NCBI GenBank assembly: GCA_019456195.1
Contig: VRUK01000003.1
Coordinates: 1-64,000, forward strand
Direction of reading: 5' to 3'
Length of the DNA stretch: 64,000 bases
Origin: Planctomycetota bacterium
GTDB taxonomy: Bacteria; Planctomycetota; Phycisphaerae; Sedimentisphaerales; Anaerobacaceae
Each line of letters begins with the position of its first letter. Position 1 is the stretch's first letter. The notes beneath the pieces were generated by a model, which was given only the letters and a program-made list of their open reading frames with translations, made no database searches and was not told where the DNA came from. Both the position numbers and the translations under genes were made by a program. Below are positions 43,543 to 52,816 of this stretch, piece by piece.

Positions 43543-45411
43543 ATGTGTGGCATAGTAGCTTATCTTGGTAAAAAACTCGCCCAGCCGATCCTCATAGAAG
43601 GTCTCAAACGCCTGGAATATCGAGGCTATGATTCGGCCGGTGTCGCCCTGTTGGGCGGCGGCTCGATAAGAATTAAAAAAGCCAGCGGGCGAATCAGTGC
43701 CCTCGAAGACGTTCTCGATGAACCGGTTGCCGCAGAAACTTTCGGTATAGGCCATACTCGCTGGGCAACGCACGGACAGCCGAACACTGTTAATGCGCAT
43801 CCGCATCTGGACTGCACCGGAAAAATAGCGGTCGTTCATAACGGAATCATAGAAAACTACGGCACCTTAAAGACCTGGCTCCAAAATGAGGGAGCCCACT
43901 TTGCCAGCCAAACCGATACCGAAGTGATAGCAAATTTAATCGGTTATTTTTACGCCAAACCTGACAGCTTTGAAGAACCGATGAATTCCGAGCCGCAGAC
44001 AAAGTTCGAATGGGCCGTGCAGAGAGCACTTCAGGAACTCTCCGGCACCTTCGGCCTCGCGATTGTCTGCTCGGACTTTCCCGATATACTCATCGGGGCA
44101 AAAAAGGGCAGCCCCCTGATCTTAGGAGTCGGCGATAACGAATTCATTATGGCTTCGGATGCCTCCGCTATCATAGAGCATACCGCTCAGGCGATATACT
44201 TTGCCGACAATGAGATGGTGACAGTCACCCCGGATGGCTTCCATACGAAAACAATTGACAATATCACAATCAGCAAAGAACTCAGTCAGATTGAATTTTC
44301 GCTGGAACAGATCGAGCTGGGCAGCTTCTCCCATCACATGCTCAAGGAAATTTTTGAGCAGCCCAAAGCTCTCACTACCTGTATGGGCGGTAGAATCGAC
44401 CGTCAAAAAAACAAAATTAAACTTGGCGGCATAAATTCTTACCTGCGCGATTTGACACGCACCAAACGGCTCATCCTCACCGCATGTGGAACCGCGTTTC
44501 ACGCAGGTTTGGTTGGAGAGTTTTTGTTCGAACATTTGGCGCGTATCCCCGCCGAAACCGAATACGCCAGCGAATTTAGATACCGAAACCCAATCATCGA
44601 AGACGGCACTTTAGTTATAGCGATAAGTCAGTCCGGCGAGACTCTCGATACCCTCTCAGCGGTGGAGGAAGCAAAAGAACGGGGAGCAACGGTGCTCGGT
44701 ATTGTCAACGTAGTCGGCTCTTCAATCGCCCGAGCCACCGACGCGGGAGTATATTTACACGCCGGGCCAGAAATCGGAGTCGCAAGCACAAAAGCATTTA
44801 CCACCCAGGTTGCGGTCCTGACAATGCTGGCAATAGAATTAGGCCGAAGAAGACACATCCGCAGCGACCAGGCAAGCAAATACATCGAGGAGCTCTCACA
44901 AATACCGGACAAGATAAGCCAAATACTCTCGCAGTCCGACCATATCAAACAAATCGCCGCCGAAAATATCGACCAGGAAAATTGGCTTTTCCTCGGCAGA
45001 GGCTTTAATTATCCCGTTGCTCTCGAAGGGGCACTGAAGCTAAAAGAGATAAGCTATATTCACGCCGAGGGCCTGCCCGCCGCAGAGATGAAGCACGGCC
45101 CGATTGCTTTGATTGTGGACGGTATGCCAGCGGTTTTCATCGCTACCGCCGGGCCGCAGTATGACAAAATTATGGGCAATATCGCTGAAGTCAGGGCACG
45201 AGGAGGAAAAACTATCGTTGTCGCCACCGAAGGTGACGAAAATATAAAACAGCACGCCGACCATTTGATTACTGTCCCCTTTACCCCCGAGATTCTCCAG
45301 CCTTTGCTCACTGTTGTACCGCTTCAGCTTTTGGCATATCACGCTGCCGTACTCCGTGGACACGATGTTGACAAACCGCGAAACCTCGCAAAAAGTGTTA
45401 CCGTTGAATAG
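43543..45411 (+). CDS. glmS: Glutamine--fructose-6-phosphate aminotransferase
   Basis: GlmS (622 residues) makes glucosamine 6-phosphate, the first step to UDP-GlcNAc. The N-terminal nucleophile Cys 2 (MCGIVAYLG), GHTRWATHG, the two SIS isomerase domains (SQSGETLDTL and LGRGFNYPVALEGALKLKE) and the end KSVTVE are intact. The leader has no ribosome-binding site close to the ATG and contains AT-rich AGTAAATA repeats. I see no glmS ribozyme signature before it. Confidence 0.97.
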   Translation: MCGIVAYLGKKLAQPILIEGLKRLEYRGYDSAGVALLGGGSIRIKKASGRISALEDVLDEPVAAETFGIGHTRWATHGQPNTVNAHPHLDCTGKIAVVHNGIIENYGTLKTWLQNEGAHFASQTDTEVIANLIGYFYAKPDSFEEPMNSEPQTKFEWAVQRALQELSGTFGLAIVCSDFPDILIGAKKGSPLILGVGDNEFIMASDASAIIEHTAQAIYFADNEMVTVTPDGFHTKTIDNITISKELSQIEFSLEQIELGSFSHHMLKEIFEQPKALTTCMGGRIDRQKNKIKLGGINSYLRDLTRTKRLILTACGTAFHAGLVGEFLFEHLARIPAETEYASEFRYRNPIIEDGTLVIAISQSGETLDTLSAVEEAKERGATVLGIVNVVGSSIARATDAGVYLHAGPEIGVASTKAFTTQVAVLTMLAIELGRRRHIRSDQASKYIEELSQIPDKISQILSQSDHIKQIAAENIDQENWLFLGRGFNYPVALEGALKLKEISYIHAEGLPAAEMKHGPIALIVDGMPAVFIATAGPQYDKIMGNIAEVRARGGKTIVVATEGDENIKQHADHLITVPFTPEILQPLLTVVPLQLLAYHAAVLRGHDVDKPRNLAKSVTVE

Positions 45412-47247: not shown

Positions 47248-47456
47248 TTCTAAAAACTCCTTACAAATCCTGACTACAAAATATGATAAAAAATATACCC
47301 CCCGTTTTGTTTAATTACAAGCCTAAACCGTTATTCTGCTTACCCCGATCTGATTGGAATAATTCCTGAGTATTGGTTTTATTGAAACCGCAGTTTATTG
47401 CCAATTGAAATAAAAAGATAGGAAGAAGGGATATCAGACATTCTTTAAGATTCACA

Positions 47457-48032
47457 CTAAAAGATATTTCTTACGTTTGTAGCGAACGGCCTGAATCCTG
47501 ATTGGCATCGGTTACACAAGATGTCTATATTAATCTTACTTGACACTCTTGCATACATTTCCCTCTGTGATATCTTGATTTGACTGTTTGCGAGCAGTTC
47601 TTCACATACTTGTTTTGGATTGCGTATAGTCTCTGGGTTGGCCTGTCTATCGATATTATAATCAAGAACTTCGGCCAATGCCTTCTCATCTGCCAGCATC
47701 CAGGCATCGAACATTCTTATCGCTACCCCCATCGCACGGGGAAATCGCGATAGTGAAGAATCCTGTGCTTCCTGAATCTGTTCAATCCTCTCCATTTCAC
47801 CATCTTCGTCGATCAGCAGTATTAATGCATCTGCGCCTCTTTTCTCAGCTTCTTTTAGCCAACGGAATGCCCTCTTAAAATAACCACTTCCTTTGCCATG
47901 AACGGCGTGAATATTCTTGTTAGATACTCGATCGAATTCGAAAACCGCATTATCTCCGCCGAGTCTTTTCAGAAGACTCTCCAGGACACCCGATAACTCA
48001 TGTTTACCCTCCGCTACAACCAGGACCCTCAT
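47457..48032 (-). CDS. TOPRIM-like DUF4276-type protein, partner of AAA ATPase
   Basis: The protein has 191 residues. The acidic pattern resembles a TOPRIM nuclease domain: VVAEGKHE with a Glu after the first strand, then ILLIDEDGE with the D-x-D type motif, and RMFDAWMLADEKAL, typical of DUF4276 proteins. It is encoded directly after an AAA ATPase with an ATGA overlap. This split ATPase/TOPRIM arrangement resembles OLD-type and AbiL- or PARIS-like defence modules. The assignment to defence is inferred. Confidence 0.7.
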   Translation of the reverse strand: MRVLVVAEGKHELSGVLESLLKRLGGDNAVFEFDRVSNKNIHAVHGKGSGYFKRAFRWLKEAEKRGADALILLIDEDGEMERIEQIQEAQDSSLSRFPRAMGVAIRMFDAWMLADEKALAEVLDYNIDRQANPETIRNPKQVCEELLANSQIKISQREMYARVSSKINIDILCNRCQSGFRPFATNVRNIF

Positions 48033-49228
48033 TCTCTGGCCCTCTCTTTTTGATCTCCCGATTCGGCGATTTTCATATCACCTTCAGAAGTCCAAATTTC
48101 ACCAAGAGTAAAGACATTAAGTTGTTGCATTACCGTAAGACTATCGGACAATCTGGTAGTCTTTATTTCGCCGGTTTCCATCTTAGTGCAGAGAGTAACT
48201 TCTTCGGGTTTGAACAAATCAAGTCCATAAGGCGAATGGGTCGTAAGGACTACCTGTGTGTGCGGCTGTTCATGTACTAAATTACGCAGAATTTCAAGGA
48301 TATCACGTAACCGCTTCGGATGAATGCCATTCTCCGGTTCTTCAACAAGCAGTAACCTCGGCGGTTTCGGAAGGTAGAGGATTGACAGATAGGCTAAGAC
48401 AAGGAGAGTACCATCGGACGCTTGAGAGGCTGGCACTAATTGGCCACTCCCTTTCAACTCGAAATATAATCCCTTGCCATCCGTCTTATTTAACATTGTC
48501 ACCTGTTCAGGATCATCGACAGGGGCACGATAAGCCTTTTCCGGTATGAGCTTAATTGATTTGATATGAGGAAATACCTTTTTGAATCGTTCTTCAAGTT
48601 TAACGAATCGGTCTCGGTCGAAACTCCATATCTCATCTAAACATAAAGTTAAGCCGAAACCATTAGGTTCCATCCTAAATCGACGCTTGGAGTCGGGCGC
48701 AACCGGCAACGCCAGAAATGAGGGATCAAAACGATAATAATGCACTCCACTTAGGAGTTCTTGAACACGTTTAAGTTCGTCACTATTAGGGTGAGACTTA
48801 GATGGTCTATCTAAATGGCGCTTTACAAAGGTACTGTTCGATTGATTGCCTAAGTCTATATGTCCTGCTTGATTGCCCAATTCGAGACGTTCCACTCCTA
48901 TGACAAATTCCTTCATTATCACCGCTTGTCTATCACGCATTCCAAACTGAACACTTATTCCATAACCAGTTATGGCATCATCATCAAAATCCACGTCGAT
49001 TTCTACAGGTAAATCCGAATGTCCATTCCAGACGAGTTCTTTATCTTTCCATGAACCTAAAAACGCTTGGGCTAGCCCGTGATCCACACTTCGACATAAT
49101 GCAGCGAGCACATCGAGTACGCTTGTCTTGCCTGAATCATTTGGTCCAATCAAAACATGGATAGGTGTCAACTCTATCTCAATCTCTCGGAGCGCCTTAA
49201 AGTTCTTGACTCTTAATCTCTTAATCAT
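48029..49228 (-). CDS. AAA ATPase (OLD/AAA_21-like), candidate defence module
   Basis: The protein of 399 residues is an ABC/SMC-like ATPase. Walker A is GPNDSGKTS near residue 30, Walker B LLLVEEPENGIHP and the switch His is in VLTTHSPYGLDLF. The first line, MIKRLRVKNFKALREIEIEL, is typical of the RecF/OLD group. It lacks its own nuclease domain, which is encoded by the overlapping downstream gene. About 950 bases upstream hold no gene, only repeats and low-complexity sequence. Confidence 0.88.
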   Translation of the reverse strand: MIKRLRVKNFKALREIEIELTPIHVLIGPNDSGKTSVLDVLAALCRSVDHGLAQAFLGSWKDKELVWNGHSDLPVEIDVDFDDDAITGYGISVQFGMRDRQAVIMKEFVIGVERLELGNQAGHIDLGNQSNSTFVKRHLDRPSKSHPNSDELKRVQELLSGVHYYRFDPSFLALPVAPDSKRRFRMEPNGFGLTLCLDEIWSFDRDRFVKLEERFKKVFPHIKSIKLIPEKAYRAPVDDPEQVTMLNKTDGKGLYFELKGSGQLVPASQASDGTLLVLAYLSILYLPKPPRLLLVEEPENGIHPKRLRDILEILRNLVHEQPHTQVVLTTHSPYGLDLFKPEEVTLCTKMETGEIKTTRLSDSLTVMQQLNVFTLGEIWTSEGDMKIAESGDQKERARE

Positions 49229-50185
49229 CTCTTTTGCTCTTTGCGAAAAATATATGGATATTTATACAAAATTTATCTTTTTGTGCCGCTACAATCTCAA
49301 GTTACATTTCTGTTTCAGTGCTGATTATCATTAATATTCCTGCTAATGTCAAACTTTATGACCTAAATTGTTTGGAATTCCGCAGTAAAACAGAAGGGGT
49401 AGTTTCTCCAGTCCATAGTGAATTAAAGGGTGAAAATAAGACATCCTCATAGCCGCCTATTTTTTGAGATCACCACACACAATGTTATTATCCCACATTC
49501 ACCACCGTATCCACTCCTTCAACTCATCCATACCTCGAAAAATCTTGCAATTTTCAGTCAAAAACGCTCACTCTCAAAAACAAAAATAAAATATTTCAAA
49601 ATTTTTTATCTCCTTTTTCCACATCGAGTTACAAGAATACAGCATCGAAATTCGAGACTTTTTTCGACTCAAAAGTGCACACTCCTCTAATTATAGAGGC
49701 GCTCTTTTTCTGCCCTCACTAAATAGTCAATAATTAATATTAATTAGAAAGGCATGGCCATTTCGCACATAAACTTAGAGTTTATCCAAATGACCGTCTC
49801 GTTAAGAGGCCGAGCGAAAAGTTCGAGGCCAGGGCGGCAGGTCAAAAAGGCTCGCAAGCGTAGCCTAAGCTACTCTGAGAACGTTTTTGCACCGACAACG
49901 CAGGCATCGGGCTTTGCAGCTGGCCGCAATAGAGAGGGGTATTTGGATACACTCTACAACTGTAGAGATAGCTCTACAAATCAGACCCTTTTATGCAAAA
50001 CAAACCCAATTTCGGAAATGATAAAATGAACATAAACACTTTTATAACAATGAGATATGCAAATTTGAACGCTTGGCGGGGGTGCAAAAACAAACCCAAT
50101 TCAAAGCCAATAAAGCCAAAAACAAACCCAATTCAAACCCAATTAAAGCCAAAACAAACCCAATTCTAATTGGCATTTAATCTTA
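49229..50185. other. Gene-poor, AT-rich stretch with palindromes
   Basis: I see no convincing gene here. Short palindromes are CCTCTAATTATAGAGG at 49684-49699, before a T-rich tract, and GTAGCCTAAGCTAC at 49860-49873. An ORF at 49754-50029 runs through the latter and has no recognisable features. The last 200 bases hold the AAACAAACCCAATT repeats described separately. Confidence 0.6.
49993..50169 (+). repeat. AAACAAACCCAATT low-complexity repeat with open frame
   Basis: AAACAAACCCAATT or close variants occur about five times between 49997 and 50166, mixed with AAAGCCAAT. One frame from ATG 49993 is open for 58 codons and reads N-K-P-N and K-T-N-P-I repeats. I recall similar tails on predicted planctomycete proteins, which suggests a dispersed repeat family, but that is memory and not a search. 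I do not regard it as an ordinary gene. Confidence 0.5.
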
Positions 50186-51481
50186 TCAAAGTCTCCACGG
50201 TGCGCGCAAAGCTCTCGCTCTCATCTTGTCCGCTTCCGGGTCATTCAAAAATCGTTCTTTTTCAGGGTCCCACTTCAGCGGCCGTTTCAGCCAGTACGCG
50301 ATATTACCCAAATGACAGACCGTAATAGATCGACACCCAACCTCGGCGTCGCTGGCCGGCCTTTTGCGCGTTTTAATGCACTGCAGAAAATTATCCGGAT
50401 GATTTATACTTTCGTACAGATGTATTTCATCCCGGCCGATTTGTTGTCTGAGAAGACTCTCCGGCTTCGTTATCAAATGGTCCCGGCTGACCTCAATCAT
50501 CCCCTTGGTCCCCGTAAACAAAACACCCGGCACGTTCTTGCTAATCGGGCCGCGTGTCATAATTGTACCGTTGGCATATTTATAGGTGAGCACCTTGTAA
50601 TCCTTGCCGTCCGGCGGAATAATCTCTACCGGCCCGCTTTCATCCATCCCCATCGCCCACTGAGCCGTATCGAACATATGAGCACCCCAGTTGGTCATCT
50701 CTCCGCCAGAATAATCTCGATAGCCCATCCATCCCCCAGGCGCAATCTTCGATGTGTAAGTCCTCCACGGTGTCGGCCCGAGCCACATATTCCAGTCAAG
50801 CCACTCCGGCTCCGGCTCACCCGGTGCATTACACGACCACGCAGGCGGCCCGCCGACATTGACCGTTATCGATTTTATATCTCCGATATACCCGTTACGA
50901 ACCAGCTCGCCAGCAACCCGAAATTCCCGCCACGAGCGCTGCTGAGTACCCGTCTGGAATATCCGCCCGTATCTTTTGACCGTATCGGCCATCTCTCTGG
51001 CCTGCCTGATAGTAAGCGACATCGGCTTCTCGCAGTAAACGTCCTTCCCCGCCTTGACCGCCGCGATGGATGTCAGAACGTGCCAGTGGTCCGGCGTAGC
51101 AACCAATACCGCGTCGATATCACTCCTCGCCGTAAGCTCCCTGAAATCATTATAACTCGCGCAGTTGTCGTTGCCGTAATGTTTATTGACAATACCGACG
51201 CCGCGATTGCGATTGTTGGCGTTAACATCACAGATAGCGACAAACTGCACCTCTGGCTTACTCAGGAAACCGCCGCCCTGCACCCATATTCCCCCGCCGA
51301 CGTGCCGTGTCCCCTGTCCTCCGACACCGATAGCGCCCATCACAATCCTGTTACTCGGCGCAACCGCCCCCGCATTGCCCATCGCCGAAGATGCTACCAA
51401 ATAGGGAAAGCCGATCGCTGCTGCGGACGTTCCCGCTGCTTGCTTCAAAAATTGACGTCGATTAATTCCTCTTGCCTTCAT
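50186..51481 (-). CDS. Gfo/Idh/MocA oxidoreductase with Tat signal
   Basis: The protein has 431 residues. MKARGINRRQFLKQAAGTSA is a twin-arginine signal ending around V-A-S-S-A. The nucleotide-binding start GAIGVGGQGTRHVG and the catalytic CEKPMSL follow, with GWMGYRDYSGGEMTNWGAHM typical of the planctomycete/Bacteroidetes GH109-like or sugar-dehydrogenase group. These enzymes act on sugars with NAD, often tightly bound. It lies downstream of a paralogue on the same strand with 45 bases between them. Confidence 0.92.
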   Translation of the reverse strand: MKARGINRRQFLKQAAGTSAAAIGFPYLVASSAMGNAGAVAPSNRIVMGAIGVGGQGTRHVGGGIWVQGGGFLSKPEVQFVAICDVNANNRNRGVGIVNKHYGNDNCASYNDFRELTARSDIDAVLVATPDHWHVLTSIAAVKAGKDVYCEKPMSLTIRQAREMADTVKRYGRIFQTGTQQRSWREFRVAGELVRNGYIGDIKSITVNVGGPPAWSCNAPGEPEPEWLDWNMWLGPTPWRTYTSKIAPGGWMGYRDYSGGEMTNWGAHMFDTAQWAMGMDESGPVEIIPPDGKDYKVLTYKYANGTIMTRGPISKNVPGVLFTGTKGMIEVSRDHLITKPESLLRQQIGRDEIHLYESINHPDNFLQCIKTRKRPASDAEVGCRSITVCHLGNIAYWLKRPLKWDPEKERFLNDPEADKMRARALRAPWRL

Positions 51482-51512
51482 AAAAAATGCTCCGTTTTTC
51501 TCTTACTATTAA

Positions 51513-51529
51513 TCAATAATCATTTATCA
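51513..51529. repeat. 17-base AT motif repeated after a stop codon elsewhere
   Basis: TCAATAATCATTTATCA here includes the stop codon of the minus-strand gene ending at 51527. The identical 17 bases occur at 56670-56686, just beyond the end of ppdK, and a partial copy (GATAAATGATTATTTG) near 60193. It may be a dispersed 3' UTR element or just AT-rich drift. Confidence 0.4.
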
Positions 51530-52816
51530 GAATTTCCACGGCGCCCGCATGGCCCGCGTAAGCATATTGTTTGCCGCCGAATCATTAATAAAACGTTCGG
51601 CCTTCGGGTCCCATTTAAGTTTTCGCCCCAATTTCATCGCAATATTACCCAGGTGACAAACACTGGCCGAACGGTGCCCGATCTCCGCCGTGCAAATTGT
51701 GTCCTTGCGGCTCTTAATGCAATCCAGGAAGTTCTGCTTGTGGTCTTTGCTCTCGTACAGGTGAATCTCATCCGGCCCGATTACGCTCGTCAGAAGCGAC
51801 TTCGGCTCGGCGTTTATCTTGTTGCGTGTTACATCAACCCAGCCTTGTGTCCCTTCGAAACGTGTATGCCCGCTGCCGCTTTTAAGAAACAATTTTACGC
51901 CGTTAGCGTATGTGTACTCGATGTCCTCGTTCTGAGCGGTCGTAAACAATCCCGTCTTTGGAAAATCGCCGCGCCCGACAATCTCGACTGGCCCGGTATC
52001 GTCCGCTCCGTTGCCCCACTGTGCAATATCGAGATAATGAGCGCCCCAGTTGGTCATCTGGCCCTCGGAATAGTCCAGAATAAAACGGAACTGATAGTGA
52101 CATCGCTGCGTCGTATAAGGCTCCCGCGGCGCAGGCCCAAGCCACATATCATAATCGAATCCTTCCGGCACCGGCTCGGCCTCCCACGTCGGCGGGCATT
52201 TACGATTATTACCGTGAATCCCGACCCTCATAGTATGCAGCTTGCCGATCCGGCCGTTGCGCACCAGCTCGCACGCGAAACGAAACTCACTGCCCGAACG
52301 CTGCTGAGAGCCCGTCTGAAAAACACGCCCGTATCGCCTGGCCTCATCGGCAAGGACACGCCCTTCGCCTATGGTCAAAGTCAAAGGTTTCTCACAAAAC
52401 ACATCCTTACCACTCCGCACCGCCGCAATCGAAATCGGCACGTGCCAGTGGTCTGGCGCCGCGACTGATACCGCGTCGATATCATCCCGGGCCAATACTT
52501 CACGAAAGTCTGTGTAAGAAAAGGCCGGAGCAAGACCAGCTATCTGACGTGCTCTTTCCCGGTGTCCGGCATCTGCATCGCACACCGCAACAACCTCGCA
52601 GCCCGATTTGCCTCTGAATCCCTTCATATTGCCCGTTCCCTGACCTCCCAGACCAATACAACCCATCGTGATGCGGTTGCTCGGCGCCCCTGCTCCGAAC
52701 ACGGAAGAAGGAACGATTACAGGCCACGCTATGGCCGCCCCCGCAGCAGCCGCTGAACTCTTCAAAAATTCCCTGCGGCTCACAGTTGCAGCCCGTTTGC
52801 TTCGTCTGCTGTTCAT
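51527..52816 (-). CDS. Gfo/Idh/MocA oxidoreductase with Tat signal
   Basis: This paralogue of the neighbouring gene has 429 residues. A Tat signal (RRSKRAATVSRREFLKSSAA) leads into GCIGLGGQGTGNM and the catalytic CEKPLTL, followed by YSEGQMTNWGAHYLDIAQW. It probably converts a sugar or sugar derivative outside the cytoplasm together with the double DUF1080 protein encoded just upstream, which is how such genes are commonly grouped in planctomycetes. A 718-codon ORF on the opposite strand spans both genes but is only a shadow. Confidence 0.92.
   Translation of the reverse strand: MNSRRSKRAATVSRREFLKSSAAAAGAAIAWPVIVPSSVFGAGAPSNRITMGCIGLGGQGTGNMKGFRGKSGCEVVAVCDADAGHRERARQIAGLAPAFSYTDFREVLARDDIDAVSVAAPDHWHVPISIAAVRSGKDVFCEKPLTLTIGEGRVLADEARRYGRVFQTGSQQRSGSEFRFACELVRNGRIGKLHTMRVGIHGNNRKCPPTWEAEPVPEGFDYDMWLGPAPREPYTTQRCHYQFRFILDYSEGQMTNWGAHYLDIAQWGNGADDTGPVEIVGRGDFPKTGLFTTAQNEDIEYTYANGVKLFLKSGSGHTRFEGTQGWVDVTRNKINAEPKSLLTSVIGPDEIHLYESKDHKQNFLDCIKSRKDTICTAEIGHRSASVCHLGNIAMKLGRKLKWDPKAERFINDSAANNMLTRAMRAPWKF

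Follow-up and report, generated by a model that had tools for sequence, protein, structure and literature searches.

A divergent HEC-01-type pair of an OLD-like ATPase and a predicted TOPRIM protein in a planctomycete genome

In the PARIS system, the AriA subunit restrains its partner AriB before activation. Once AriA has detected the phage protein Ocr, it activates AriB (PMC12839542), and activated AriB cuts host tRNAs (PMC12839542; PMC12409363). With its split genes, PARIS has been proposed as class 4 of the OLD family (PMC10568477). OLD nucleases cleave DNA with a TOPRIM domain that uses two metals; the ligands in the B. pseudomallei enzyme are E400, D455 and D457 for metal A and E404, T506 and E508 for metal B, and E508 is part of the helical domain, in its first helix (PMC6755086).

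The catalogued system closest to the locus described here is the defence candidate HEC-01. HEC systems were reportedly defined in a preprint by Payne et al. The abbreviation stands for 'Hma-embedded candidates'; HEC-06 is the one among them named as active (PMC12988326), and HEC-01 is listed among the DefenseFinder predictions in Desulfovibrio piger (PMC12724379). Like the pair reported here, HEC-01 consists of two adjacent genes, for an AAA_21/OLD ATPase and a DUF4276 protein. Pfam lists DUF4276 among its domains of unknown function, and a literature search found no paper with the term DUF4276.

The gene pair and its relation to HEC-01

The pair lies in a 64,000-nucleotide stretch of DNA (the window) on contig C157 of a planctomycete assembly of 5.8 Mb in 217 contigs. 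Both genes are on the reverse strand: the ATPase gene (48029..49228, 399 aa) is followed by the DUF4276 gene (47457..48032, 191 aa), and the stop codon of the former and the start codon of the latter share the sequence ATGA (48029..48032, reverse strand), suggesting translational coupling. The ATPase matches Pfam AAA_21 (E = 3.1e-34) and AAA_15 (E = 3.5e-25), both above cut-off, with no nuclease domain among its Pfam matches, and the 191-aa protein matches DUF4276 (E = 1.9e-10, 41.8 bits against a cut-off of 30.2). Coordinates and Pfam matches agree with the initial annotation, which had described an ATPase without nuclease domain overlapping a DUF4276 frame by ATGA. A consensus scan placed a sigma-70-like promoter match (TTGACA-17-GATAAT, 11/12; 49324..49352, reverse strand) approximately 100 bp before the ATPase start; the scan gave 8 promoter-type sites where shuffled sequences had 5.7 on average (sd 2.3), so the match is weak evidence alone.

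Each protein was assigned to its best family in PADLOC-DB 2.0.0, rather than by PADLOC's own score and coverage thresholds, which gave HEC-01A for the ATPase (E = 1.1e-45, 154.3 bits) and HEC-01B for the DUF4276 protein (E = 3.5e-10, 38 bits). With both an HEC-01A-type and an HEC-01B protein recognised, and their genes adjacent on one strand, the window copy is a divergent member of a catalogued candidate system (PADLOC, 2023) and is not new in kind. The initial annotation, which had proposed a candidate defence pair, had the biochemistry largely right, but did not recognise the combination as the catalogued HEC-01A/B. Since HEC-01, the best named system for both proteins, is itself a defence candidate, the assignment supports the candidacy of the pair.

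The genome contains another pair (G000:C48, locus L077, 6243-7975), which is a typical HEC-01, scoring 432 bits with HEC-01A and 241 bits with HEC-01B; it is located between acyl-CoA-dehydrogenase-like and phosphatase-like genes, named by eye only. Its DUF4276 protein matched 12 plasmid records, 9 of them with an AAA ATPase annotated under the match, and no phage record. Set against these scores, those of the window pair (38 against 241 bits, and 154 against 432) identify it as an outlying branch.

In a midpoint-rooted tree that took 27 of the 37 available other DUF4276 loci, the 25 members from the window's group formed one clade apart from the 27 other proteins (support 0.83). All 25 rows of the clade alignment match HEC-01B models, and one lacks a Pfam DUF4276 match at E 0.1. 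By its sequence, the window copy thus belongs to a divergent, mainly planctomycete branch of HEC-01. It differs from typical HEC-01 in its low scores, its separate clade, an Asp for Glu at position 109 of the DUF4276 protein, and its surroundings, where no Hma system was found (0/8 scanned neighbours match PADLOC).

Other described systems are less similar. Like PARIS, the pair has split ATPase and TOPRIM-type genes; unlike AriB, which carries DUF4435, the small protein has no DUF4435 Pfam match, nor does it match the AriB model (PADLOC, E up to 1), and for the ATPase the best AriA model scores below HEC-01A. Both proteins weakly match the MAD3/MAD4 models of MADS, with 132.7 and 23.6 bits where the NCBIfam cut-offs are 420 and 160, and no MADS model matched any of the 8 scanned window neighbours. 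AbiL is also not indicated: AbiLi gave 82.6 bits for the ATPase, below HEC-01A, and AbiLii did not match the small protein. Pfam RloB matched the clade with a best E of 0.0056, and 5/25 members at E up to 0.1.

Predicted folds and conserved residues

The ATPase contains a Walker A (GPNDSGKT), a Walker B (LLLVEEPEN), an H-loop (TTHSPY), a signature-like SQASDG and a C-terminal LGEIW motif. The same or near forms are present in 18/18 aligned clade members; this alignment omits eight loci that are fragmentary or whose starts are unsure (L101, L102, L103, L105, L110, L115, L116 and L120). The AlphaFold model of the ATPase (pLDDT 87.4) was re-aligned with VIA to Rad50/SMC heads, PtuA and the Thermus OLD nuclease with Z of 18.3-20.6, and its closest PDB relative by sequence is also the Thermus OLD nuclease (6p74). 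On the basis of the motifs, the re-alignment and the sequence match, the 399-aa protein is an OLD/Rad50-like ABC ATPase that lacks a nuclease domain.

It shares the ATPase head fold (6p74, Z 19.1) with single-chain OLD nucleases such as class 1 and Gabija GajA, which the pair also resembles in its TOPRIM constellation; unlike class 1 and 2 OLD, where ATPase and TOPRIM are on one chain, the two are on separate ORFs here. The similarity to the PtuA of Septu and retrons is also in the ATPase fold (Z 18.3-19.8). The partner distinguishes the two: PtuB is an HNH nuclease, and the small protein here is TOPRIM-type.

For the DUF4276 protein, a confident AlphaFold model (pLDDT 89.8, pTM 0.86) was obtained from a 25-sequence clade alignment, comprising the window and 24 of the 25 other loci (L120, with a frame of 106 aa, was left out). 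Searches of PDB sequences with this protein or its profile matched unrelated chains weakly, and no TOPRIM was named among them. With Foldseek alone, the model had no match that reached E 0.001, and none of the best 50 rows was a TOPRIM structure. When the top 1000 Foldseek chains were re-aligned with VIA, the highest-ranking one was the PARIS chain 8ux9_A (Z 8.6, 5.2 A, 164 residues aligned), which from its size is probably AriB, and the OLD C-terminal regions 6nk8, 6njv, 6njx and 6njw aligned with Z of 7.8-8.5 (4.2-4.6 A, 150-158 residues). The alignments to TOPRIM structures have 12-13% identity. Unrelated folds occupy rows 7-18, starting from Z 6.7 with 94-117 residues, and the guide of the tool notes that models with no clear match still reach a best Z of 7-8, which makes the present values middling. 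The remaining one of the six best rows is the uncharacterised Pyrococcus protein PH0156 (2p62; Z 8.3, 4.0 A, 162 residues). As this is about as good as the alignments of the OLD TOPRIM domains, 2p62 may be a solved structure of the DUF4276 fold.

Five acidic residues, E8, E12, D75, D77 and D109, are invariant in 25/25 rows of the clade alignment; L081, a phylum-sample protein with 49% identity, carries an Asp at position 8 in another alignment of 7 rows. Of the 27 other DUF4276 proteins, 27 have E/D at position 8, 25 have E/D at position 12 and 25 have D at position 75, while D77, the second aspartate of the DxD, is kept in 10/27. Position 109 is Glu in 27/27 of these proteins, compared to Asp in the window's clade. 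In the model, strands span residues 2-7, 69-75 and 99-104, and D109 is located in a helix (108-113) following the third of these. The glutamate after the first strand and the DxD that characterize TOPRIM nucleases are both present in the clade (E8, and D75/D77).

These residues occur in the same order as the metal ligands of OLD and with the same E-x3-E (4-residue) spacing, and their order and secondary structure suggest a one-to-one correspondence. E8, E12, D75, D77 and D109 are thus predicted metal ligands. Given that Foldseek alone showed no TOPRIM, assignment of the fold rests on the VIA alignments at middling Z together with the conserved residues, and we consider the case for a TOPRIM fold in the modelled protein to be of moderate strength. 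The reading of the locus as a split OLD-type ATPase and TOPRIM pair hinged on a TOPRIM match for the smaller protein. Such a match is found with VIA, and the folds and conserved residues back this reading, moderately so as regards the TOPRIM fold.

Linkage, genomic context and mobility

The ATPase gene is directly upstream of the DUF4276 gene in 24 of the 25 other clade loci, and the remaining one (L105) starts at a contig end. The two genes overlap by 4 bases in 16 of the 25 and by 1 base in 8. Partner genes are cut by the contig start in L102 and L110, and frames are shortened in L103 (ATPase, 261 aa) and L120 (DUF4276, 106 aa), two loci that look broken. Among 61 relatives, 25/29 DUF4276 loci have an upstream ATPase, and the 4 misses are all at contig ends; this count includes the window's own locus and its two orthologues and leaves out L071 (a second piece of the L053 frame) and the matches G012:C503 and G012:C500. 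In the phylum sample, an ATPase adjoins 14/15 matches other than the window's own. The exception, L092, was matched neither by Pfam DUF4276 at E 0.01 nor by PADLOC, and is perhaps not a DUF4276 protein. The divergences of the two partners correlate over 18 loci (r = 0.88; 0/2000 permutations as high), which in part reflects shared descent. The pairing is more than chance.

A variant arrangement was observed in L094 (79-3177), where a second ATPase ORF directly follows the DUF4276-like gene, giving the order ATPase, DUF4276-like, ATPase. Two interrupted pairs, with a TAG in the ATPase gene (G048:C1:2446342-2447392) and a TGA in the DUF4276 gene (G012:C568:7243-7872), are possibly decaying copies. 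In the window both genes appear to be under purifying selection, since the dN/dS values relative to the copy in the same-genus relative G002 are 0.19 (ATPase) and 0.25 (DUF4276).

In the window, dapB is located downstream of the pair, with two Gfo/Idh oxidoreductase genes upstream past a gene-poor stretch, and a glutamine-amidotransferase/SIS gene farther away (43543-45411). The G002 copy, on a 98,899-base contig, is in another place, after an HflX-type GTPase gene and before an HNH/AP2 gene; blastn against this locus (L072) defines a common block of 88% identity (47444..49429, reverse strand) that includes the promoter match and is probably the mobile unit. A same-family relative, G023, contains a pair with 72-78% identity to that of the window on a 20,892-base contig in a third context, flanked by two small ORFs with a radical-SAM gene beyond them on one side, and by a sigma-54 regulator on the other. 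A fixed housekeeping context was rejected given dapB beside the pair in the window, the HflX-type GTPase in G002 and the sigma-54 regulator in G023. Besides the pair, no gene family is common to more than 3 of the 26 loci (25 and the window), so there is no fixed housekeeping locus in which homologues reside, the circumstance that would have weighed against the initial annotation. For the same reason the pair has no fixed helicase or reverse transcriptase partner, which distinguishes it from Gabija and single-chain OLD systems.

A related genome without the pair at the corresponding site is G003 (L076), where similarity to the window extends beyond dapB to 47327 and resumes at 51523. The intervening 1.4 kb contain no pair, and two ORFs that by eye resemble a Y1 transposase of G005, in which the dapB flank is followed by that Y1 transposase and a 261-aa ORF. 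A match of 49549-49714 in L074 was considered as the far flank of the G005 slot and rejected, as this stretch is a dispersed repeat; the pair-less site is accordingly taken from G003 only. An ATPase orthologue of at least 68% is present in 3/61 genomes, and any match to the small protein in 16/392 phylum-sample genomes, the window's own included in both counts. As close relatives carry the pair at other loci and the G003 flanks are present without it, we conclude that the pair is a mobile module rather than a housekeeping one, its movement being deduced from the changing contexts. No mobile element was identified as carrier in the contexts compared, and the window's clade had no phage, plasmid or viral contig matches.

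The initial annotation had seen a sign of defence genes in the repeat-rich, gene-poor stretch beside the pair. The stretch is real (49229-50185), and contains two dispersed repeats that each match tens of other places in this genome; since these are spread genome-wide, they do not mark a defence island. The repeats at 49549-49714 and approximately 49987-50169 have 40 and 46 listed matches, the window's own included, and the two families are found a few hundred bases apart on several contigs. They are possible REP-like elements, given the Y1 transposase in the matching slot of G005 and the similar ORFs in G003. A 32-bp tandem repeat (50085-50166, 2.5 copies of CAAACCCAATT-like units) directly adjoins the Gfo/Idh gene.

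The oxidoreductase genes (50186-51481 and 51527-52816) are tandem members of the Gfo/Idh/MocA family. G003 has a single such gene at the matching place, which resembles the second of the two, and the first may therefore be an insertion or duplication. A 718-codon open frame (50312-52468, forward strand) antisense to both is probably a by-product of their codon usage.

Neighbouring genes likewise gave little indication of defence. None of the 8 window neighbours scanned matched PADLOC at E up to 1e-5. Among 112 flanking genes of the other clade loci (L096-L120; genes of at least 100 aa and not cut by the locus end), PADLOC matches at E up to 1e-10 fell into 28 families; in the best 25 of the 28, mad3 and mad2 were matched in two members each and the other 23 in one each, and the matches were often to generic models (Cas12f-type, RtcR, DndA/SspA). 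No clear defence-island signal was found in these 112 genes, which is an absence of signal and not a test, as there is no background set for comparison. With dispersed repeats, no matching neighbours and no clear signal in the flanks, the argument for defence from the neighbourhood does not hold.

A candidate conflict module and alternative functions

The linkage of the genes, their predicted folds, the conserved ATPase and metal-ligand residues, purifying selection and several chromosomal contexts together describe a mobile module of HEC-01 type. We consider it probable that the pair is a conflict module, most likely directed against phages or mobile elements, and that it functions in the manner of PARIS, like a split OLD nuclease. 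By analogy with PARIS and OLD, the two proteins would form a complex with the ATPase as sensor-switch and the DUF4276 protein as effector. The ATPase protomers would dimerise and bind ATP like Rad50/SMC heads and hold the TOPRIM subunit inactive, until a trigger made by the invader changes the ATPase and switches the TOPRIM subunit on. The active subunit would then cut nucleic acid by two-metal catalysis, with DNA as a candidate substrate, as in OLD, or tRNA, as in AriB. Weighing against this reading are the absence of recognised defence genes in the scanned surroundings, the middling Z of the TOPRIM alignments, the poorly kept D77 in other DUF4276 proteins, the two clade loci that look broken, and the finding that no phage, plasmid or viral contig matched the clade.

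A more specific version of this proposal is that the mainly planctomycete clade is a distinct split-OLD branch, with Asp for Glu at the predicted second-metal position and its own trigger and target, for example a PARIS-like, tRNA-cleaving abortive effector from an independent TOPRIM lineage. This is tentative, and we regard it as rather unlikely.

The pair could instead be an accessory of DNA repair or recombination, in which a RecF/RecR-like or SMC-like ATPase works with a TOPRIM protein on host DNA outside defence. The ATPase model fits Rad50/SMC heads as well as it fits PtuA and OLD, the neighbours are not recognised defence genes, and an archaeal OLD-family ATPase is described with a role in the cell cycle and apparently none in antiviral defence (PMC12796447). 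Such a function is nevertheless unlikely in view of the patchy presence of the pair among relatives and in the phylum, its changing chromosomal context, and the full set of predicted catalytic residues on a separate small subunit.

The two overlapping genes and their mobility would also suit a toxin-antitoxin-type addiction pair, in which the ATPase controls a toxic TOPRIM nuclease and defence is a mere side effect. Pfam names AAA_21 a 'putative AbiEii toxin, Type IV TA system', which is a label and not a test, and AriB offers a precedent for a TOPRIM subunit that cuts tRNA once activated (PMC12409363). The pair is found on chromosome-like MAG contigs, however, and the clade has no plasmid or phage match, and we consider this explanation quite improbable. 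It overlaps the conflict-module reading in mechanism and differs mainly in what maintains the pair. That the pair is a degenerate, inactive remnant, as the interrupted copies and short frames in relatives might suggest, is hardly credible for the window, where both genes are open, the key residues are kept and dN/dS is low.

The present evidence points to a likely fold for DUF4276, predicts its active site and pairs it with a nearly constant partner. The HEC-01 candidate thereby becomes directly testable by point mutants (E8, D75, Walker A/B), and the logic of an ATPase combined with a TOPRIM protein recurs in OLD, Gabija, PARIS and HEC-01.
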